A stretch of 26,937 bases of DNA from a virus, in IMG/VR virus record IMGVR_UViG_3300008110_000461, positions 1-26,937 of that record; one strand, written 5' to 3'. Below the pieces are notes generated by a model. The model had not been told where the DNA came from. It made no database searches and saw only the letters and a list, made by a program, of their open reading frames with translations. Made by a program: the position numbers and the translations under genes. This document shows, in pieces, positions 4,614-26,937 of the stretch (position 1 is the stretch's first letter; each line of letters begins with the position of its first letter).

Positions 4614-4952
4614 TCATGCGTTCAGAAGAACCCATCCATATTGTGAGCCAGAATAAAGAAGATCTACAGCATTATTAGGAATATTTAATATTAGGGGCTC
4701 ATTCAAGTTAGCAATTTTTGTAGTTGTTGTATTGACTCCTACAGTGCAGAAATTTGTTCTCCAGTTCCCTGTTGGGTCAACGATGGAAACTCTATCTCCA
4801 ATATTTGCTGTATCAGCACTTGGAATATTAATTGTAATAGCAGTGCTTGTTGTATCAACAAGATAAGTTCTGCCAGATATTGCAGTAAATGGTGTAGTAC
4901 TTACAGTTACAACTTCTGTCGTAAATGTTGGTGCAGAAATGAAACGTCCCAT
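4614..4952 (-). CDS. Small virion-type protein with fibre C-terminal-like beta domain
   Basis: 112 aa, beta-rich, no membrane segment. From about residue 30 the order TYLVDTTSTAITINIP, GDRVSIVDPTGNW, LILNIPNNAVDLLYSG, YGWVLLNA matches the layout of the C-terminal domain found on many marine phage fibres (ordered strands, a GDxVxxxD turn, and a final YSGxxYGW). The 149-aa protein at 9307-9756 ends in a recognisably related domain. It sits between a 106-aa beta protein and the Cys-rich adhesins, with AGGAG upstream, so it is probably a small fibre-associated or decorating protein. The exact role is unknown. Confidence 0.85.
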   Translation of the reverse strand: MGRFISAPTFTTEVVTVSTTPFTAISGRTYLVDTTSTAITINIPSADTANIGDRVSIVDPTGNWRTNFCTVGVNTTTTKIANLNEPLILNIPNNAVDLLYSGSQYGWVLLNA

Positions 4953-5363: not shown

Positions 5364-8300
5364 TCAAGAAGTTGCAACCCAATAAGTAAATGGTCTTGAT
5401 TTAATAATTGTATTGTCAACGTATGCCTTCACTGCCGCTTGAGTGGAAACTTTTTCATTACTATTTTGAGAGAGTGTAATATCAGTAGAGAATTCATTAA
5501 TTTGAGCTCCCAACTGAGCACCGATAGAACCCAATCTCAATGAGGTTAGACCAGAAAGGTCGAACGCAGAAGCATTCAATGTTGCTGCACCAGTTGCCTG
5601 GTTAACACGGAAATACTTACCTACACGGAAGTTACCATTTTGGTCGGTGGATACGTAGTAAACACGACCAGGATAATCTTCTGTAACTTCTCTTGATGGG
5701 ATTGGATCTACTGTTGGTACACCAGGCCAATTGGTTGTTGATGTTCCACCAGTACCAATCTGCAAGAAGTCATGACCAGTCAATCTAACTTGTGAATACA
5801 AGTATCTGATTCTAAATACTTGCTCATCGTAAGTTTTATTTGCTTTTTCTTCTGCGAGAATCAATGTAGTTCTTCCTGTGGTATCGATACCAATAGAAGT
5901 AACTTTCATGAATTCACTATCAATCTTAATAAAGTTATCTGTACTAAAACCAGTTACATTATTTACTCTCACGAAAGATTGTACAGGAGTCTGGTCCTTA
6001 ATGATTTGAGTTCCAGAAATAGTATTTGCGACTCCAATTGCTCTGAATGATGTTCCATTTGAATAACCAGTTGCAATTCCTGCTCCTTCTTGTGCTCTCA
6101 ATACAGTCATTGCAATGGATGAATCCAAACTCACAATCTTCATTAATTCATTTGTTGGTGTTAGCACAAATCCATTTTGGAAGAATCCTGCAGTTGAACT
6201 TACAACAATTTGAGTATCATTAGTACCAATTGGAGCCGCAACTGTTGCAATAACGTTTGTCCAAGGATAATTTCTAATATTATTATTAGTACCAAAATGC
6301 TTTGCTGCAGTTGTGGTGAGTTGTGCTCTATTTACACCAATATTTCCTCTGCCATCTGGAGCAACATAGCTTACGTTCTGGATAACATAGGTAAATGGAT
6401 CTGCACCAGTAATTGTAGTTGCCGCAGTTCCAATAACACCACCGTTTCCACTACCAGTTACGAACTCGACACTTCCACCTGTTTGAAGATTATTCTGAAG
6501 ACCTCTTACAACAATAGTGAAACCACTTTGTCCAACGTTTGCATCAGTATTATTTGTTAAAAATGCTTGAGTTCCAGAAGTTTGTCCAGTAATCAGTTCG
6601 TTCTGTCTAAATCCAGAACCATTTGGTCCAGATGTAACTACACTATAATAAAGTGCGGCAATAGAAGTCTGGACGGAGGTTAATTCCCCAACTGCTCCTG
6701 AAGTTGCACCAATAATTCTTTCTCCTTGAGTAAATCCAGGAGCAGTGATTGTTTCAACATTATACTTTAATTGAAGACCTTCTACTGTTCCAGATAAGAA
6801 TGATTCATCAGTGTTATATCCAGAGCTGACAATAGCATAGTTGCCCCATGAGCTGTTTCCTGCGAGAGAACGAATTCTTCCTCCACGAGTTGAACAGTAA
6901 CTAACATGTGCATAATAAGTAAAGCAGGAAACCATTTCTGCTGCAGCATTATTGGTAATCCAGAATCCAACACCATTGTCATGGATATTTGTCCAAGAGT
7001 CAAAAACGATAGACTTATTAGATCTTTGTGGAGTATTATCGTATTGTTTGTGTACTTTTCCATCGACTACTGCTCCAACACCACCAGTTGAAAACGCAGA
7101 GCAGTTAGAAACGTATGGTGATTTTGTAATTGGTGAATTTGGATTCAGTTTTACAAATACACCACGAACTGTTGCATTATTTAAATCTCTATCACTAGCA
7201 GTAAATGTTATAGGTGTGGATGAAACTGTTTGTGCAGTATCTACTTCTACCTGTGTTGTACTTAGATATGTTACTACTTTGGTTCCAACTGCAATTCCAG
7301 TTCCACTAATGACAGTTCCAACCAAATCTGGTTCCATTTCTGCGGTTGAATTGGTTAAAATTGTCCCAGAAATTGAAGCAGTTGCAGTTTTGAGAACACC
7401 AGCAGGAACAAAACCAGTCATTCCGTCCATAACAATGTCCTTAAGCATAGTTCTGTCACTAAGCATAAACATTGTTGATTGAGCATTAGTCAAGGTAACT
7501 GCATTATCTACAGTAATATCAGAGGCGCCATTTTCCCAAGTATCAACACCTGATACCCATACACCACCAGTAAGTGGTTCAATTTCTACCTTTGTCTGTG
7601 AAAAGTTGAAATCTAAAATTCTAGCAGTTTTAGTTCCAGCACCATTAGCAATAGTTGCACCATACTGCATAGCAGTTGATGGAGCAGAGTTTAAAGTTAA
7701 AACTTGATGATTTGAATTTCCTGCTGCTGGTACTATCTTTGTTGTTCTTAGGTTATCACCTACAATTGTTACATTGGGTGGAACTGTAATAGGAAGTTGC
7801 TCTTCATAAGTTCCTGCTTTTACATAAATTGTTGCTGGACCAGTTACGATTCCACATGCATGTTTAATTGTGGCATATGCACGATTAATGTTCTTACCGT
7901 CATTGGAATCACTTCCTTCTTCTGCTACATAGAAAACTGGATAAGTTACATTATTTGTTTCCCAAACTGGCACTCCTGATGGAGAAACAGTTAATACTTT
8001 TCCATTAGTTCCAATTGGGAGAGATGCTGGACCTGCACCAGATTGGTAAATAATATCACCAGTTGCAGAAAGAACATTAGTTGCAGAACCCTGAGTTAAT
8101 GGATTCCAATATGTGCCGAGAGAATCTGTGGCAGGGTCATTATTAAAGTTAGTTGATGCAATACTAACATAACTGTTTGAATTTCTATAAATTGTGTCAC
8201 CTTGTTGATATGTGGTGACTGATGACCATGCACCTTTCCACTCAAATCCCTTAACAATTAAATCCCACTTGTTAGGAACTTGAACTGGATTGCTGGTCAT

Positions 8301-17642: not shown

Positions 17643-17846
17643 TTAGTTATTTATCCTTTCTACCAATAATTTTAGGCAATCTTTTATTTCTTGGATATCT
17701 GATTTTATGTTATCCAATTCTTCCCGTTCTTGTATTTTTCTATTTTTTATTTTCATATACTCATTGTATTCGTGTTCATTGCAATTCAAAACTGCATTGG
17801 TCTCTTCATCTCTAAAGAGACCATTACTATCTTTTATGGGTATCAT
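17643..17846 (-). CDS. Small coiled-coil protein (67 aa)
   Basis: 67 aa. The first half (MIPIKDSNGLFRDEETNAVL, then NCNEHEYNEYMKIK) is followed by a charged helix, KIQEREELDNIKSDIQEIKD, with heptad-like spacing of I and L to the end, suggesting a coiled coil. Proteins with the same opening sit near baseplate genes in T4-like cyanophages. Their function is unknown to me; a scaffold or adaptor role is only a guess. The ATG overlaps the stop of the DUF4815 gene (ATGA, 17846-17843), so its translation depends on ribosomes finishing that long gene. Confidence 0.85.
   Translation of the reverse strand: MIPIKDSNGLFRDEETNAVLNCNEHEYNEYMKIKNRKIQEREELDNIKSDIQEIKDCLKLLVERINN
17648..17655 (-). promoter_or_regulatory. 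Candidate T4-type late promoter (GATAAATA)
   Basis: GATAAATA lies over the last codons of the 67-aa gene, 22 nt before the ATG at 17626. Its short leader has no visible Shine-Dalgarno. Confidence 0.45.
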
Positions 17847-20800
17847 AATACTGCGATTGCTCTTAGATCTTTAATTTTTGGTACAACTGATTGATTTTTT
17901 CCTGCCATGATAATTTTTATTTGGAACCCATTGAATAATGGTAGGTCTTTAGCAGTATATTCATAACTTCTATATTCCGATTCGGAAGAAGAAGGTAAAA
18001 CATTAATATCTGGAGTACCATCATTATTTTTTGGATCAATCACATTGCCATTTAAATCTACATTTCTGAAACCAGGGAACAATTCAAATAGTTGTTGGTC
18101 ATCTGGAGTGTCAGATCTCAACAATCGATACATTACTATAATTTCATTTGAAACATCTCTATAAGCATCAAAGTAAACTTTGAGACTATCTGCACCTTTT
18201 TGCAATCTAATTACTTTGGAGATATAAATTGCAGAAGTTGGATCATCATAAAGACTATTAACTCTAGGATCAGTTACATAATTTGCAACTGGTCTATCAA
18301 GTCTATTCATTGTTGTAATAATATTAACTCTATCCAAGTCTATAATTGGTGAAACTTTAGTATCACTAGTGGAAAGAGTCATTTCCATAACAAAGGACTT
18401 ATATCCAAGATAGCTCTGAAGATTTGCAACTTCGTTGACCCTTGATGCAATAATTCTTGGATTATCAAAGTAATTATTTGAATTCAATGATATTGATTCA
18501 AATTCTCTGGCACTAAATGGTAGTTCAGTCCCATTTACACTCTTTCCAGTCACTGTTCTAATTTTTGCATCAAGTGATGTTGTTTCTGGAAGAAGTGATT
18601 GAATATTTGGTCTTAAACTATCAAATTGTATATTTTGAGATGCCTTTGGTCCAGAAATAGTATTTGCTCCAGATGAACCAACATTTAAATCATATGTTCC
18701 ACCTGTCTTTGTTTCACTAAAGAATAATTGTGGTGGACCAAATCTTCTATCTTTTCCTTTCTCATCAGTTTTTACTTTAATATGATAACTATCTAGAGTG
18801 ATTGGATATTTATTGGTATCTACATCCGCAAATGAGTGTGTTCGATTTATTCTTCTCAAAGAAATACCATTAAACTCATATTTAAATACTGGGGAGCCAG
18901 AGAAGTGGTACGGTATAACTGTGACATTAAAAACACCAGGATTGTCGATATCAATTCCTCTAGTTATACCAGTAAGAGTATTTGCATCAGAGTCATATCC
19001 AGTGTATCTGATTATTTCATTATTTACCTTGATATATCCTGGATTGTCCGATGATATCCCAATATTTTCAAAACTAGTAAAGATTCCAACAGAAGATACT
19101 TGGATACTTCCAGTTGCAGCCTGATTGAAGTCACTTACTAATTTTTGTGGAGGTACATCTGATTCAATTCCATAAAGAGTAACCAGGTTAGTATCAGAAT
19201 ACATTCCATGATTGTTGTGATTTACTTTGAAATGTAATCCATCAGTTAAAAGTTCAGAGTAATTTACGAGTCCATTTGAAATCGTTGATATTCCATTGCT
19301 TGGATTTACATAAGAAATCTCATTAGCAACGTTCGATGTATTGATTTCATCTTGAACTTGATCTATAATCAATGAATTGAATGATGAAATGATTCCAACT
19401 AAATTCGGAATTGTCAATACCAAATTTCTACCAAATCCACCAGTTTGACTGCTTGGAACAGTTAATGTATCACCAATAGCATAACCTGTTCCACCAATAG
19501 ATACTGTTGCTGCAATTGCAACTCCAGATTGGATAGTTAAATTAACTTTAGCACCAGAACCTCTACCCGATAATGTGGTTAATGGAAGATTATTGTATAC
19601 TGTATTTTCGGTATATCCAACTCCAGGATTCGTTATGCTGAGGTTTGAGTTAATTCCTACAGCACCTACAATACTTGACAACTTTCCAGAGAAATTAGGA
19701 TAGTTGGATTGCAATATTGTTGTTCCAGGTACTAAATTGGTAATATCGTAAGTAGATAATGTTCCCGAAAGACCGACTAGAATTTTCTTAGAATATGCAA
19801 CTATTGGATTTGGTCTTAGAGAAGCAATTTGTCTATTTCCTACACCTAAATCGGGGTTGTAGAATCGGAAACTTCCAGTGGTTGAAGTAAATTCTGCTCT
19901 ATGTAGAATGAATTTTAGATCTTCCAATTGCGATGGTTCCCATGTAGCACCATTTTGCGATTTAAACAATGAACCAAGAGTTGGTTGTTGGGAAACGATG
20001 ATTTTTTCTGCTTCTGGTTTATTGATTGTCGATACATCAACTTCAGTCATTCTTGAAATCCAAACATTATATGAGTTTGAATTGGAAATCAATACGATAG
20101 CATAATCATTGCCACTTTCTAAGAATACGGGAGCAGGGAAAGTAAATGTTGTTGAGACAGAAGCATCTTCAGAAATTGTAATTTGATCTGGATTTAAAAC
20201 AACTTCACCAAATGGAAGAATTTCCTGTGATGGTAAACCAAGATATGATGTTCTTAATTGTAAAGTTATAGGAATATTTGCTTCATCTTTAGTTCTGAAG
20301 AAAATTTCACATTTGGTTATGAATACACCATTGTTATCATTTACTTCAAATGTTTGGGCAAGTGGGTCTACCCATCTTCTCTGAATTACTCTAGTTGATA
20401 TTACTGATCTATTTGTAAGAGTTGTATTTGCAACAAGTCTGTCTTCAGTTTCTGTTAAAGTTCTAGAATCTGTTCTAATATTTCTTTCAATATCAGCATT
20501 TCTTACTCTTAAAGTCAAACTTTCTACATTATCTACTGTTCCACTAGAAGTAAAGTTTGCTTCAGCAATACTATCAACGGAACCACCAATAGTGGAATTG
20601 GTTGAACTTGTGGTCAATGATAATGTTTTTGTTCCAGATTCAAATGTTGGATTTGATGGAATGGTTGGATCTGGAATGAATAAAGCTCCAATAAATGTTC
20701 CAGAGGAATCGGTAACAAGTCTAATGTCTGTTACTGTTGCAATCGCATTGCTCAATGCTCCAACTAGTTGCATTGAAGGTGCAACAGATCCAAAGAATCT

Positions 20801-22555
20801 TGAATCTGCTTGGTTTTCCAAACTAGCAGTATCAACATTTAAAATAGTTGTTGTTGATGAATATGAACCAGACAATGAACTTGTTGGATTATATGGATTT
20901 TCCTTATAGAATTCTGTTGGTTGATTGTAAGGTCCATATTTGTGATTTTGCTTAGCAAGTCTAAATGTAATTGCACGATTTACTCCAGTGACTGGCATAA
21001 ATCCAGTTATAGTTTCACCTTCAATAAAGGTTCCGCTAGTCATTCTAACTTCAAGAAGTTTAGGGACCATGAATGTGGTCATGTCCCTATTGTCAAAGAA
21101 TGCGTAGAATCTTGTTGATGGTTTTAATCTTCTTGCTAAAATTTCAATATTTCTAGACCTCATTAAGGTTAGGATTGCTCTAGATACAACTCTGTCCCCA
21201 AGACTAGTTGTATCAAATCTTTCACTGACTCCAAATTGTATACCCTGCCTAGTTTGTTCTGTTCTTGTTGTTACTGTATTATTTCTAAATTGAGTTAAGG
21301 AATCTTGGAAAATATCAGTAGTTGTAATTACATCCCCAGAAGATACTGTTGTTGAAGATAATAAAGTTGATGGATTTTGTATCTGTGTGATTACAGGACC
21401 TTCAACGGTTGAAGTTCCTGTCCAGTTTGTTTCCCATGCATTCCAATTAATTGGAGATAGACCAGTATTGGTATCAACTCCAAGCATTTGAATTGCTGTA
21501 TTATAATTTCCCTCTACATCCTGAGTTCTTTCAGTTTTTCTTGTTTCTATCCAAGTGTCTGTAGATGGATTCAATTCAATAGTTCCAATCCAACTTGGGG
21601 TATTAAATGGATTTACATTTTCTGTTCTAGTTGCAAATCTATTTTCTGTATAAACTACATCAGTATAATCTAAACAAACAATATCACCGATACGTTTTAC
21701 ATTTTTGGAACCAAGATCATTAGCAAATCTTAAATCCACATTTGGATTAGATGTTGTTCCAATACCAATGACTGCCTCAGACCCAAGTATTAAATCAACG
21801 GAAGTTGTATAATGTTGGGGTCTTAGAACACCGAGTGCTGTGTCTACACTTGCTTTATATGATTGATTTGCAATGTCTCCACCATTATATGATTTAAAAT
21901 TATCTACAAAAAATCCAGATTTGAATTTATCAAGACCAGTTTGTGGGTCTCTGATAGAAAGATTTTTAGTATCTGTTTCTAGTAGAGACAGTGAACTATA
22001 ATATTCTACGTTTGATAATCTATTTTCAAGTCTTGAGATATCTTTCATTGTATATCTCTTGTGACTGGAAAGAGAAACTCTAACATCTTTCATATCATAA
22101 AGATATGGTGGATAGTAGAAAGTTGCAATCTCTAATGCAGAATCTAAATTGTTTGGTGCCTTTGGGGAATTTGATGGAACACCATTATTAATAATAAATG
22201 TTCCTTCTTTAGTTAGGAACAGTTTATCTATTCTTGGTAGATAATAATTGTAAGAAAGATTTATTGTCTTATCTTTAGTGAAAATATGATTTGATGCATT
22301 TGCATTTAATGAGAATCTTCTAGATGAATATTCAAAAGGAGATTTTGTAGCAGTTGAAGCATCAAATTGCGAAACTCTTGGTCTTAAATCAATAATATCA
22401 GTGTTTCTGTATCCATCGATAATTGGTACGTCTTTACTGTATCTATCTTTATCAAATGAATCTGCAGAAACAAAATCACCAGGGTCAGAAGAATTAATTG
22501 TATAGTTATTAAATATAACTTTTATTAATATTTTTATCACCAATGGAAACAGCAT
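17843..22555 (-). CDS. DUF4815-family structural protein, C-terminal part (separated by frame break)
   Basis: A 1570-codon frame. The first dozen residues (MLFPLVIKILIK) are a frame-shadow of the gene before it; real homology seems to begin at VIFNNYTINSSDPGDFVSAD, followed by VPIIDGYRNTDIIDLRPRVS, blocks that in this family belong to the middle of one long polypeptide. Residues about 725-880 hold WVDPLAQTFEVNDNNGVF and FRTKDEANIPITLQLR, a jelly-roll-like domain. About 1000-1060 contain GVGY/GTGY-type glycine motifs. The end (LPLFNGFQIKIIMAG, VPKIKDLRAIAVL) is typical of the family. The ATG at 22555 has no Shine-Dalgarno, so independent translation is doubtful. With frame repair at the junction, 25298-17843 would encode about 2484 aa. 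It is probably a large baseplate-associated or peripheral tail protein. Confidence 0.85.
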   Translation of the reverse strand: MLFPLVIKILIKVIFNNYTINSSDPGDFVSADSFDKDRYSKDVPIIDGYRNTDIIDLRPRVSQFDASTATKSPFEYSSRRFSLNANASNHIFTKDKTINLSYNYYLPRIDKLFLTKEGTFIINNGVPSNSPKAPNNLDSALEIATFYYPPYLYDMKDVRVSLSSHKRYTMKDISRLENRLSNVEYYSSLSLLETDTKNLSIRDPQTGLDKFKSGFFVDNFKSYNGGDIANQSYKASVDTALGVLRPQHYTTSVDLILGSEAVIGIGTTSNPNVDLRFANDLGSKNVKRIGDIVCLDYTDVVYTENRFATRTENVNPFNTPSWIGTIELNPSTDTWIETRKTERTQDVEGNYNTAIQMLGVDTNTGLSPINWNAWETNWTGTSTVEGPVITQIQNPSTLLSSTTVSSGDVITTTDIFQDSLTQFRNNTVTTRTEQTRQGIQFGVSERFDTTSLGDRVVSRAILTLMRSRNIEILARRLKPSTRFYAFFDNRDMTTFMVPKLLEVRMTSGTFIEGETITGFMPVTGVNRAITFRLAKQNHKYGPYNQPTEFYKENPYNPTSSLSGSYSSTTTILNVDTASLENQADSRFFGSVAPSMQLVGALSNAIATVTDIRLVTDSSGTFIGALFIPDPTIPSNPTFESGTKTLSLTTSSTNSTIGGSVDSIAEANFTSSGTVDNVESLTLRVRNADIERNIRTDSRTLTETEDRLVANTTLTNRSVISTRVIQRRWVDPLAQTFEVNDNNGVFITKCEIFFRTKDEANIPITLQLRTSYLGLPSQEILPFGEVVLNPDQITISEDASVSTTFTFPAPVFLESGNDYAIVLISNSNSYNVWISRMTEVDVSTINKPEAEKIIVSQQPTLGSLFKSQNGATWEPSQLEDLKFILHRAEFTSTTGSFRFYNPDLGVGNRQIASLRPNPIVAYSKKILVGLSGTLSTYDITNLVPGTTILQSNYPNFSGKLSSIVGAVGINSNLSITNPGVGYTENTVYNNLPLTTLSGRGSGAKVNLTIQSGVAIAATVSIGGTGYAIGDTLTVPSSQTGGFGRNLVLTIPNLVGIISSFNSLIIDQVQDEINTSNVANEISYVNPSNGISTISNGLVNYSELLTDGLHFKVNHNNHGMYSDTNLVTLYGIESDVPPQKLVSDFNQAATGSIQVSSVGIFTSFENIGISSDNPGYIKVNNEIIRYTGYDSDANTLTGITRGIDIDNPGVFNVTVIPYHFSGSPVFKYEFNGISLRRINRTHSFADVDTNKYPITLDSYHIKVKTDEKGKDRRFGPPQLFFSETKTGGTYDLNVGSSGANTISGPKASQNIQFDSLRPNIQSLLPETTSLDAKIRTVTGKSVNGTELPFSAREFESISLNSNNYFDNPRIIASRVNEVANLQSYLGYKSFVMEMTLSTSDTKVSPIIDLDRVNIITTMNRLDRPVANYVTDPRVNSLYDDPTSAIYISKVIRLQKGADSLKVYFDAYRDVSNEIIVMYRLLRSDTPDDQQLFELFPGFRNVDLNGNVIDPKNNDGTPDINVLPSSSESEYRSYEYTAKDLPLFNGFQIKIIMAGKNQSVVPKIKDLRAIAVL
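22509..22525 (-). other. Frame break and probable deletion junction in the DUF4815 gene
   Basis: The minus strand reads AATAAAAGTTATATTTAAT. In the upstream frame it is N K S Y I stop; in the downstream frame it is K V I F N. The 11-mer AAAGTTATATT fits both the natural continuation of the left part and the natural beginning of the right part, as expected if two copies recombined and the stretch between them was lost. The alternative is one extra A in the A4 run (22523-22520) or the A5 run (22535-22531). Confidence 0.6.
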
Positions 22556-25298
22556 TAATAGTACCAGAGATATTGGTCTCTGAAGATGTTACTCTTTCAC
22601 CTAATGAAAATCTATTTTCATTTAAGTAAACAATCTCAATGCTGTTTACTCCATCATTTCCAACATAAGCAGCAACAGCACCACTGGTACTTCCAATTAT
22701 TCTTTCACCTTTTATGAAGTTATTTAAACTTGAATTTAAAGATGTGAAATAGATTCTTGGAAGTGATGGTTCTGATGTTGTTGAAGATTCATAAATTCCA
22801 AGAATGTTAACAACATCTGGAACATTTAAAGATATTGCTTTATCTTGAACTCTAAGACCATATGGTTTTCTGTAAGTAAGACCATCATTTAATGTAGTTT
22901 TTCCAATTCCAGACGAAATTAACGATGAACCATCAATAATTATGCTTGAGCATCTGTTGAATAGTTTTTTCTTTAGTTTTGTATTTACTTTTTTATATGT
23001 TACGGTTAATATTGCTTGTCCATTTTGACTTAGATTAACTAAGCTAACAGTTCTTCCAGAAACATAGACTTTTTGATTATCCAGAGATTCTATATTTCCA
23101 TTTGAAACATATGAAAGACTGTAATCTTCTTCGTCAAATGGTTCTAAAGTTAGGTCAACGTTTGTTTCCAGATTACCATTAAATGAATTGCTGACTACTG
23201 TAATGACATATGATTTTCTTATAGAAATATCTGATGAACTTAAGTCTAAATTGGAAATATTATTATTGCCAAGTTTAGCATACAAGAATGCATTAGATGT
23301 ATTTAAAACATCTAATGTCACTTTTTTGAAGTCATTGGCAGTAATTACAGTAGAAGGTAATGTTCCATCAGAAACACCAGGAACTGTATTGGTTGGTACT
23401 AAAATTAGTTTTTTCTCTGAAGTATCAATACTTACAACTTCATTGTAGGTTGGTACAACATTTCCTTGCTTTGTATAAGAAACAATATCACCAGTTTTTA
23501 TACCAACATAAAAATTGTTAGTTGAAGTTGTTACTGTACTGATTCCTGATGCCCCACTAGTGATAGTATATTGAACACCAGATTCTGTTAGGGATATTTT
23601 TTTGTTTAAAATTGGATCAGCAGTAAAAGAACCAATTCCAGCAGCAGTGTTTATACCAACAATTTGATGAACATCTGTTAGATTATAATCCCTAACTCTT
23701 GTTATGACTCTTCCATCTTCTATGCCGTCAATTATTAAACCTTCATCTTGCTTGAAAGAACCAGAAACTTGATATAATTTAACTATATTTGAATTGATTA
23801 CATCAGAAACAACATATCCACTAGAAGAGCTATACTTTCCTTCAATAAATGTGGATGCACTTAAAGTTATTGAAGCACTTAATTCTATAACTGTATATGT
23901 TTGAATATCATAAAGTGAACAATCAAATTCACTTAATGTATTTGCATATCCAGCATTTCTTAGTTTTAAATCATAAACTCTTGCTACACCAATTTTTTCT
24001 CCAGACGCAAGACCAGGAGTTTGTGTTCTTCCAGAATAAAGAGAAATTTGAGATGTAGACCCAAAACCAACAGGAAGAGAACCAAAAACATTATTTACTA
24101 AAATTTGTCTACCAACACTGAATGGTATGGATTGATTGACTACTTTTTCTGTAGTTCTTGGTTTTTGAAAATCTACAATAGTAGTATCAATAGTTTCAAT
24201 GTCGTATCCTCTTACAACTGCCTTTCCTGGTGAAACTAATATACAACCTACAGAATCATTTGGTACATTGCCTTGCTTTGTTTGTTGATTTTCTACAAAC
24301 AAACCGTTGTTGCCAATTTGATCATTTAAAGATTCTTTTAGTGAAATATTAAATGGTCTTACATAATAATCACCAGACTCATCATAAGTTCTTCTTGCCA
24401 GTTCATCCTTAATTAAATCATAATTAGTAGTTTTGACAAATTTTTGTAGGACACCTTTTTCTGCACGTAGTAATTCTACAAAATTTTCATCATTAAAATC
24501 ACTTAACTCTTTCTTAATTAAAGTTACATCAAACTTTAATCTATCTGCACCAGGTGCAGAAAAGTTAGAAAATCCTTGAGCATTATCAAACAAATCATTA
24601 TACGAGTTTGATGCTACTGCTAATTCTTCATTAATAAGTAATCCAACTCTATACGAAGGTGAGTTTGAGTATTGGTCTAATATTACAGTTTGTGGTTCTA
24701 CAGTCACAAAGAAACCACGAATAAAATATACACCAGATGCTATTTTTGCTGCGGAACCAATAGCAGTTGAATTTGAGATAATTGAAGTAGCAAAAGAAGA
24801 ACCACCTCTAATAGCAGAAATTCCATAAGTTATATCATTAACTGCTAGTAAATTTTCACCATCAATAAATGTATTGGTTGAAAAATTAGTGTCACTTGAA
24901 CTTTGGTACTTAATATAAAGAGTATAGTTTTTTCTATCTGAAGTTGAATTTGAAATATAATTTTCTACTTTTGCAGTTACACCACTAGATTCACCTTTAA
25001 TTAATTTTCCAACTAAACTACTAATGTACAAAGATACTGGTATCCCAAGATGAGTTTCGTCAATCTGGACGCAAGTATAATTTGAATCATAAGAAATTTG
25101 TCCAGGAATAACCATTGCACCTTCTTTGAAGAAGTGCTGTCCAAACTTCTCAATTTGATTTTGGAGAATTGTCTGTAGTGTAGTTAATTCTCTTGCTTGT
25201 ATTGGAGTTGCTGGTTTAAATAGAACTCTTTGATAATTTTTCTTTGGATCAAAATCATCAAAGTATGGAGATACATTTAAATTAGTATTCTGAGGCAT
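22509..25298 (-). CDS. DUF4815-family structural protein, N-terminal part (ends at frame break)
   Basis: 929 aa. The start MPQNTNLNVSPYFDDFDPKK followed by YQRVLFKPATPIQARELTTL, QNQIEKFGQHFFKEGAMVIP is the hallmark of DUF4815 phage structural proteins. Beta-rich segments follow, including RPFNISLKESLNDQIGNNGL, KAVVRGYDIETIDT, TYRKPYGLRVQDKAISLNVP and FIKGERIIGSTSGAVAAYV. The frame stops just after DKNINKSYI at 22509, overlapping the next frame by 47 bp. In the homologues I recall, a conserved DNGQRDxYYDxSR-type motif comes at about this point; it is in neither frame here, so a piece seems lost. The gene begins 6 nt after the gp8 stop, with GGAG 12 nt upstream inside gp8, so it is co-transcribed with gp8. 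Confidence 0.88.
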   Translation of the reverse strand: MPQNTNLNVSPYFDDFDPKKNYQRVLFKPATPIQARELTTLQTILQNQIEKFGQHFFKEGAMVIPGQISYDSNYTCVQIDETHLGIPVSLYISSLVGKLIKGESSGVTAKVENYISNSTSDRKNYTLYIKYQSSSDTNFSTNTFIDGENLLAVNDITYGISAIRGGSSFATSIISNSTAIGSAAKIASGVYFIRGFFVTVEPQTVILDQYSNSPSYRVGLLINEELAVASNSYNDLFDNAQGFSNFSAPGADRLKFDVTLIKKELSDFNDENFVELLRAEKGVLQKFVKTTNYDLIKDELARRTYDESGDYYVRPFNISLKESLNDQIGNNGLFVENQQTKQGNVPNDSVGCILVSPGKAVVRGYDIETIDTTIVDFQKPRTTEKVVNQSIPFSVGRQILVNNVFGSLPVGFGSTSQISLYSGRTQTPGLASGEKIGVARVYDLKLRNAGYANTLSEFDCSLYDIQTYTVIELSASITLSASTFIEGKYSSSSGYVVSDVINSNIVKLYQVSGSFKQDEGLIIDGIEDGRVITRVRDYNLTDVHQIVGINTAAGIGSFTADPILNKKISLTESGVQYTITSGASGISTVTTSTNNFYVGIKTGDIVSYTKQGNVVPTYNEVVSIDTSEKKLILVPTNTVPGVSDGTLPSTVITANDFKKVTLDVLNTSNAFLYAKLGNNNISNLDLSSSDISIRKSYVITVVSNSFNGNLETNVDLTLEPFDEEDYSLSYVSNGNIESLDNQKVYVSGRTVSLVNLSQNGQAILTVTYKKVNTKLKKKLFNRCSSIIIDGSSLISSGIGKTTLNDGLTYRKPYGLRVQDKAISLNVPDVVNILGIYESSTTSEPSLPRIYFTSLNSSLNNFIKGERIIGSTSGAVAAYVGNDGVNSIEIVYLNENRFSLGERVTSSETNISGTINAVSIGDKNINKSYI

Positions 25299-25304
25299 TT
25301 TTCT

Positions 25305-26870
25305 TTAGAACTCCAATACGATTTTAATATCTTCTTTTTGGCTTGCTGATCTTGGAATTGCCTTTCTGTTATCGATATAAATTATATCACCAGATTTTTT
25401 GTTATATTCTGCCGATGATATTCCAGCAACAAAATTGCTTCCCAACTGGTATGTCCTACTATTTATTACTGTACTAATACCCGTAAAGTTTCTATCAATT
25501 GATAATGCTGGACCAACAATATTAGGACAATTTATTGTATACGAACCACCAGCAATAGCAGATGAGGTAAATCCATAAATTCTGTATCCAACACCAACTG
25601 TAGCAAGACCAACTGGTTGATAATATTTTAAAACACCAGTTACATTATCCCAAGAAGCAACAAATCCAATTGCTGTCATACCTGTACCAATTGTTTGCCT
25701 AATTACAGAGTCTACTGGATATGTAGTTTGAGTTGTTAATCCAGAAAGTTTTATAGAATTTAAAGCACTTACCTGCCCTAAACTCAATCTTTCTGTATCA
25801 CTACCAAAAATTGTTGGATTTTTTATAATTCCGATTCTGGCAAAATCGTTTCCAAGAATAATATCTGGATTTTGTTCATCGGTTAGATATCTGGAATAAA
25901 CCAACACTCGATATGCACCAAGTTCTCTGTAAATATTATATCCATGTCCTCCTTTTGGTGGAATAATAACATCAAATGTCGCAATTCTTCCATCATTTGA
26001 CAATTCTGATGGAATTCCAGGAGCACCAGGTTGGAATTTGATAATACCTTTTGTGTAACCAGATCCACCATCTGTAACAAAGACTTCAGACACTTTTCCA
26101 AAAGAATCTACTGTTATTGTTGCCTTTCCTCCAACTCCATCACCAAGAATTGGAATATTTGTAAATGATTTTGAAATGGGTTGATAATTTATTCCTCTAT
26201 CTGTGATAGTAACAATCTCAACTTTACCATTAACTGCATTATTTTTTGTTGCAATAGTCTCACCAACTTCTCCCCAACTTTCTGGGACTGGAATGAATTC
26301 AATAGAATCAAATTTCACAATTTCAGATGGTTTAATTGTGAATAGATATTTCCAAATATACCCATCACCACTTGTTCCTGCTGGTCTTGCCTCTAAGTCA
26401 ATAAATGTTGGTTGGTCAAATGATGGTCTTCCATTTGGGTTTTCTGGATCAGTTCCATTTTGAAGACAAATATAAACTCTAAAATCTTCATTAATTACAT
26501 AAAAATTTGATTCGTATAAACTTGGTTGATTCGTTACTGGAGTTTTCTTATAAATTGAATAATCATGTCTGTACATTTCATAAGTTGTTCCAGAAGTCCA
26601 CTGGACTTTTCTAATCATCCTCCTTACATCTTCATTTGTAATTTTTTTCATAGCAATGATGGTTTCTTTGACCTGATTTTCTTCGTCAAATCCGTCCAAT
26701 GGAGTCAATCCATCACCCCAAATAGCAGATCCACCTGCCTGTGGATTTAAACTATTTGGTTGACCAATAAAGGTATAATAATTATTTGCAGTATTACCAA
26801 CTGAAACTAGACTTTTTACAAAGGTTTCAGCATTCATCACCCTAAATTGTTCAGTTATGATAGCAGGCAT
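25305..26870 (-). CDS. gp8: Baseplate wedge subunit gp8
   Basis: 521 aa from the ATG at 26870; a TTG three codons upstream is possible but less likely. T4 gp8 is 334 aa. It resembles T4 gp8 at the N-terminus (IITEQFRVMNAETFVKSL), at GTSGDGYIWKYLFTIKPSEI (about residue 165-182, T4 GDGYVWEYLF) and at the C-terminus (SGDIIYIDNRKAI, then EDIKIVLEF, T4 SGEMIYMENRPPI and EINILFTF). In T4, gp8 dimers sit in the upper part of the baseplate wedge and link gp6, gp7 and gp10. The extra length includes a region around residues 240-300 with ITVDSFGKVSEVFVTDGGSG, a GGxGY repeat also found in the DUF4815 protein. No strong Shine-Dalgarno is visible; a promoter-like ACTAAATA is 22 nt upstream. Confidence 0.93.
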   Translation of the reverse strand: MPAIITEQFRVMNAETFVKSLVSVGNTANNYYTFIGQPNSLNPQAGGSAIWGDGLTPLDGFDEENQVKETIIAMKKITNEDVRRMIRKVQWTSGTTYEMYRHDYSIYKKTPVTNQPSLYESNFYVINEDFRVYICLQNGTDPENPNGRPSFDQPTFIDLEARPAGTSGDGYIWKYLFTIKPSEIVKFDSIEFIPVPESWGEVGETIATKNNAVNGKVEIVTITDRGINYQPISKSFTNIPILGDGVGGKATITVDSFGKVSEVFVTDGGSGYTKGIIKFQPGAPGIPSELSNDGRIATFDVIIPPKGGHGYNIYRELGAYRVLVYSRYLTDEQNPDIILGNDFARIGIIKNPTIFGSDTERLSLGQVSALNSIKLSGLTTQTTYPVDSVIRQTIGTGMTAIGFVASWDNVTGVLKYYQPVGLATVGVGYRIYGFTSSAIAGGSYTINCPNIVGPALSIDRNFTGISTVINSRTYQLGSNFVAGISSAEYNKKSGDIIYIDNRKAIPRSASQKEDIKIVLEF

Positions 26871-26891
26871 TTTATACAACCGTTTTTTCTT

Positions 26892-26899
26892 TATTTAGT
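26892..26899 (-). promoter_or_regulatory. Possible late promoter (ACTAAATA) before gp8
   Basis: ACTAAATA has two mismatches to TATAAATA but lies 22 nt before the gp8 ATG, the same distance as the better matches at 17648, 9779 and 2464. The position argues for it more than the sequence does. Confidence 0.3.
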
Positions 26900-26900
26900 T

Positions 26901-26936
26901 CTATTTTAGACCACGAGTTCTATATACGTCTGGAGC
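26901..26936 (-). CDS. Possible C-terminal end of an upstream gene (partial)
   Basis: Reading from the right edge, one of the three minus-strand frames gives APDVYRTRGLK and then TAG, ending 30 nt before the gp8 start. The composition is protein-like and the position fits the end of an upstream baseplate gene (in T4, genes 6 and 7 precede 8). All three frames meet a stop here, so the choice rests on plausibility only. Confidence 0.35.
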   Translation of the reverse strand, partial: APDVYRTRGLK

Positions 26937-26937
26937 A

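Follow-up and report, generated by a model that had tools for sequence, protein, structure and literature searches.

Disruption of the DUF4815/VrlC gene in the viral record

The window, a whole virus record of 26,937 bases, carries a DUF4815/VrlC gene that is split into two frames by a 95-bp deletion, and sequence comparison indicates that these 95 bp were very probably lost in the joining of short-read contigs, with the gene whole in the phage. The split is a true property of the record, but most likely not of the phage. Three other IMG/VR assemblies contain the same phage (phage A) and are identical to the window in their overlap apart from the 95 bp: L001 (3300042691), L002 (3300008267_000040), whose record G002 spans the whole window, and L003 (3300008261), whose record is referred to as G003. 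The relevant features of the window are the following.

17843-22555 (-), C-terminal piece of the DUF4815/VrlC gene: a 1570-aa ORF, comprising 10 non-native residues from a chance ATG and 1560 native residues
22509-25298 (-), N-terminal piece of the same gene (DUF4815, PHROG 358, VrlC): 929 aa, comprising 924 native and 5 out-of-frame residues, followed by a stop
22524-22527 (-), deletion junction: 95 bp of G002, L001 and L003 missing, with bases 22525-22526 assignable to either side
25305-26879 (-), adjoining gp8-like baseplate wedge gene: undamaged in the window (PHROG 438, E 1.7e-154; Phage-Gp8, E 4e-09)
26824-26937 (-), terminal 114 bp of the window record: an exact match to L004 (3300008261_000171), a related but different phage

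The ORF listing of the window contains a 929-codon frame that terminates at 22509, and the C-terminal remainder of the gene in another phase, as a frame of 1570 codons; 47 bases belong to both long open frames. Profile searches assigned both pieces to the same family. The first piece matched positions 1-759 and the second positions 801-2054 of the 2056 positions of PHROG 358, with E values of 5e-223 and 0, respectively, and the corresponding DUF4815 matches (E 4.8e-27 and 6.1e-31) were both over the curated cut-off. The ORFs and the profile matches thus confirmed the two-frame split reported in an initial annotation of this DNA, which had also described the ATG of the second frame as lacking a ribosome site; by eye, none was seen before the ATG at 22555.

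VrlC/DUF4815 proteins (PHROG 358, PF16075) occur in T4-like cyanophages and pelagimyophages, and both pieces of the window gene resemble them. The gp8-like gene lies next upstream of the split gene, and in Cyanophage S-SSM6a the gene also follows a gp8-like gene, but there it is one CDS of 7518 nt, whereas the window gene is not a single continuous frame, being broken by the 95-bp gap. Both pieces are also similar to ORF65 (E 8e-11 and 7e-33), a DUF4815 domain-containing protein in 9EUF, 9EUI and other solved structures, which are of a Staphylococcus phage baseplate. ORF65 has 1152 residues compared with 2516 for the intact protein here, and the alignments shown leave the lost block uncovered. 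The gp8-like neighbour and PMC7029224 suggest that the protein may be part of the baseplate in the virion.

Comparison with identical unbroken records

Exact comparison of the window with G002 29441-56472 revealed identity from position 1 to 22526 and again from 22525 to the end, with a net 95 bp missing, and comparison with L001 gave the same 95-bp result. An otherwise identical sequence without the deletion is therefore available from other assemblies. The clean junction contains no N, and the window differs from G002 nowhere else over 26.9 kb; not one N occurs in the 104 loci compared. In G002, the intact gene (47283-54833) is one frame of 2516 codons. The encoded protein has 924 N-terminal and 1560 C-terminal residues in common with the window frames, and exactly 32 residues that are in neither of them, containing the DNGQRPEYYDYSR motif. 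This DNGQR-like block is present in relatives. The initial annotation had described a missing block of 30-40 residues with such a motif, and had proposed that a deletion, and not a single-base indel, took it out and shifted the frame. Both points agree with the intact record, and with 95 bp missing a single-base indel is ruled out.

The proposal that two copies of an 11-mer had recombined to produce the deletion did not hold. The 11-mer, AAAGTTATATT, is visible in both frames at the junction, but the intact record has a single copy around the site and the window likewise has one, indicating that the reader had seen one stretch read in two frames. No pair of repeat copies flanks the lost segment. 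The true junction overlap is 2 bp, and when 95-bp deletions were placed along the phage sequence, an overlap of at least 2 bp arose by chance in a fraction of 0.17. With one copy in the intact sequence, the repeat-mediated deletion is refuted, and we assign it next to no probability. Of the original interpretation, the deletion with its frame shift stands and the repeat mechanism falls.

Properties of the lost block itself were also examined. Structure prediction with AlphaFold for 560 residues spanning the site gave a mean pLDDT of 49, with mostly moderate to good confidence in the part corresponding to the lost block (about residues 145-176), which is predicted to form two short strands closing a strand-rich stretch. 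The block was only averagely conserved (0.755 compared with 0.744), and 47% of 32-residue stretches were at least as conserved; its shared exact words were not unusually long. The idea that the block was lost through unusual conservation, and hence as sequence common to co-assembled phages, is unsupported by these results.

Continuity of the gene in relatives

The best 80 of 451 loci from an IMG/VR protein search were kept. Both sides of the site are present in 77 of these best 80 loci, and the frame is continuous, with no stop between, in all 77. The gap between the matched parts was 81 nt in 67 loci, 84 nt in nine and 111 nt in one, in which the downstream match begins 10 residues later. A strict motif pattern matched 23 of these 77 loci. 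Variants such as DEGQRSEYLDFSR are found in most of the remainder, and a few loci are more divergent still. Alignment to homologues had been set beforehand as a test that could refute a deletion, and the relatives do carry extra residues at this point; in none of the 77 comparable loci is the homologue encoded as two genes with the same boundary. The 200 aa around the site match 419 records of isolate phages, and in 415 of these records one place covers at least 80% of the residues; the 30 isolate rows shown are each a single piece.

These data bear on a further explanation, in which two proteins or a frameshifted fusion would be made from a naturally split gene. The 47-base overlap of the long frames would fit such an arrangement. 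However, no frameshift restores the 32 deleted residues, the frame is unbroken in every comparable locus, a single place covers at least 80% of the surrounding residues in almost all matching isolate records, and the records that are identical elsewhere are unsplit. Gene fission or programmed frameshifting is thus ruled out by the relatives and the lost block, and its probability is negligible.

Three further copies of the gene were noted. In Synechococcus phage S-SKS1 (L255, NC_020851.1; 5453-12812), the DUF4815/VrlC gene is unannotated and appears as one ORF of 272 aa and another of 2104 aa, with the break at a different site, between 6271 and 6498, and no N there. The gene matched in Synechococcus phage DSL-LC02 (L256, OR032571.1) is not annotated in its own right; the record is circular, and the match falls close to its start, which the gene may cross. 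In L062 (3300020190_000261), a small indel near locus position 7700 changes the frame of the DUF4815/VrlC gene, with protein identities of 98% and 97% on its flanks.

Concentration of deletions in one assembly series

Comparison of G003 with G002 over their full overlap revealed 64,608 common bases and zero substitutions, and G003 lacks five stretches of G002, of 117, 24, 301, 123 and 89 bp, with junction overlaps of 0, 1, 5, 0 and 0 bp, respectively. In the same comparison, no stretch was missing from G002 relative to G003. The 301-bp deletion interrupts a frame of 814 codons.

The 80 loci were then surveyed for deletions of at least 18 nt by comparison with relatives that are 78% or more identical, a design that would miss deleted stretches replaced by at least 25 bases, such as the L045 replacement described below. 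Deletions were found in three loci: L003 (117 nt), L004 (184 nt, or 67 more than L003) and L032 (172-174 nt). All three belong to series 3300008261/3300008267, giving three of six loci in this series and none of the 74 others. At least half of the length was covered by relatives in 78 of the 80 loci, including 72 of the 74 outside the series. If the loci are treated as independent, which is not fully true, the probability that the six would include all three is about 2 in 10,000. In 61 near-identical pairs (560 kb aligned), breaks were seen only in two L003 pairs and four L045 pairs; in two pairs, small gaps add up to 21 and 12 bases.

L032 (3300008267_011301), from another phage of the series, has a deletion of ~172 nt with a frame change at position 4862, in a gp8-like gene. 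At positions 9999-10060 of L045, inside the DUF4815 gene, ~60 bases stand in place of ~75 in L036, L038, L040 and L041; this replacement could be real variation.

Deletion edges and 114-bp stretches shared between phages

Maximal exact matches between G002 and the compared contigs of other phages were listed from a length of 40 bp upward. Within the series, the longest matches were exactly 114 bp, at three separate sites, with none longer, whereas contigs of other projects gave matches of up to 158 bp and none of 114. A graph built with k = 115 leaves overlaps of k-1, exactly this length, between neighbouring contigs.

G003 lacks 117 bp and L004, a different phage of about 87% identity, lacks 184 bp; both deletions end at the same base, and exactly 114 identical bases begin there. 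The window record stops at this same base. L116 shares a 114-bp stretch at the 24-bp site, where the match to L109 reaches 115 bp if the 1-bp overlap is counted. The 114-bp stretch at the 301-bp site is shared with L110, whose contig ends with it. The edges of the 117-, 184- and 24-bp deletions thus abut 114-bp stretches, and the 301-bp edge lies inside one. For comparison, 3.3% of 150 random places abutted a match of at least 100 bp. No 114-bp stretch was found at the 123-bp, 89-bp or L032 172-bp deletions.

Further gaps were observed around the 24-bp site. Relative to the five spanning relatives (L106-L109 and L116), G002 lacks about 190 bp at 63485, equivalent to ~63 residues of protein, and this gap sits at the edge of the 114-bp inter-phage stretch. 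G002, the longest record of phage A, is probably itself damaged. Right at the other end of the same 114-bp stretch, L116 is without about 42 bp relative to L109.

At the 95-bp junction of the window, no 114-bp stretch was found in the loci compared, the longest abutting match being 15 bp on the right and 18-20 bp on the left. A search of viral contigs with the 33 bp downstream of the junction matched only the three phage-A records. If a deletion edge at a 114-bp identity is taken as the mark of an artefact, it is seen at the right end of the window and not at the 95-bp junction, so that a verdict of artefact at the junction rests on membership of a class. The basis for this membership is that the 95-bp loss affects the same phage, is a deletion of the same kind and size, and occurs in a record ending at a shared stretch.

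Origin of the 95-bp deletion

The initial annotation had kept an assembly artefact as a fallback, and this emerged as the better-supported reading, given the unbroken identical records in three other IMG/VR assemblies and the concentration of deletions in one series. The chance-level junction overlaps, and the absence of the new junction from the other viral contigs searched, point the same way. In the proposed sequence of events, a cyanophage-like T4-type phage would carry its DUF4815/VrlC baseplate gene as one frame of 2516 codons. In assembly, contigs may have been joined at 114-bp shared places, with the short intervening pieces dropped. The window may come from series 3300008261/3300008267 or its pipeline, and its 95-bp deletion would then have arisen like the others of the series. 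The loss would remove 32 residues and shift the frame, giving a 929-aa protein with five foreign terminal residues. Deletion edges and contig ends at 114-bp identities resemble known short-read assembly errors at sequences common to co-occurring genomes, whereas the 95-bp junction differs from these in having no detected shared stretch. Further points count against an assembly error. A plain de Bruijn assembler can form a join with an overlap of 0-2 bp only if reads or a scaffold link provide for it. In addition, the end of the window at the edge of the 117-bp deletion of G003 could reflect real deletion-bearing molecules in both samples.

We also considered a real deletion, in which a subpopulation would lack the 95 bp and persist as defective genomes through co-infection with whole genomes, and the assembler would have chosen that path. 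The clean junction is consistent with this, and the coincidence of the record end with the site of the 117-bp variant would fit several segregating deletion variants. However, three otherwise identical records hold the block, and the new junction was found in none of the other viral contigs searched. Five deletions with zero substitutions over 64.6 kb are unlike natural divergence, the deletion length does not keep the frame in three of the six phage-A cases (95, 301 and 89 bp), and the clustering follows the assembly series and not the phage. A real deletion is accordingly judged unlikely. More generally, a population with many short real deletions in structural genes, unchanged elsewhere, in which defective genomes are common enough to reach the assemblies of several samples and multiply with the help of whole genomes during co-infection, appears quite improbable. 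PMC11443906 describes strain diversity as giving rise to complex assembly graphs. No papers on these deletions were found in the literature searched, which covered DUF4815/VrlC, baseplates and false assembly deletions.

Implications

Taken at face value, the record would encode a protein cut short at residue 924 of the 2516, together with an orphan C-terminal frame without a visible ribosome site. An assembly error, the preferred explanation, makes this a caution and not a discovery: in this series, contig joining can yield split genes and missing motifs with no N and with perfect flanks. This class of defect is worth knowing for readers of other contigs in the series, and the fixed 114-bp ceiling of shared sequence may help in recognising it. 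If the deletions are real, they would instead mean that defective genomes are abundant in a phage population in nature.
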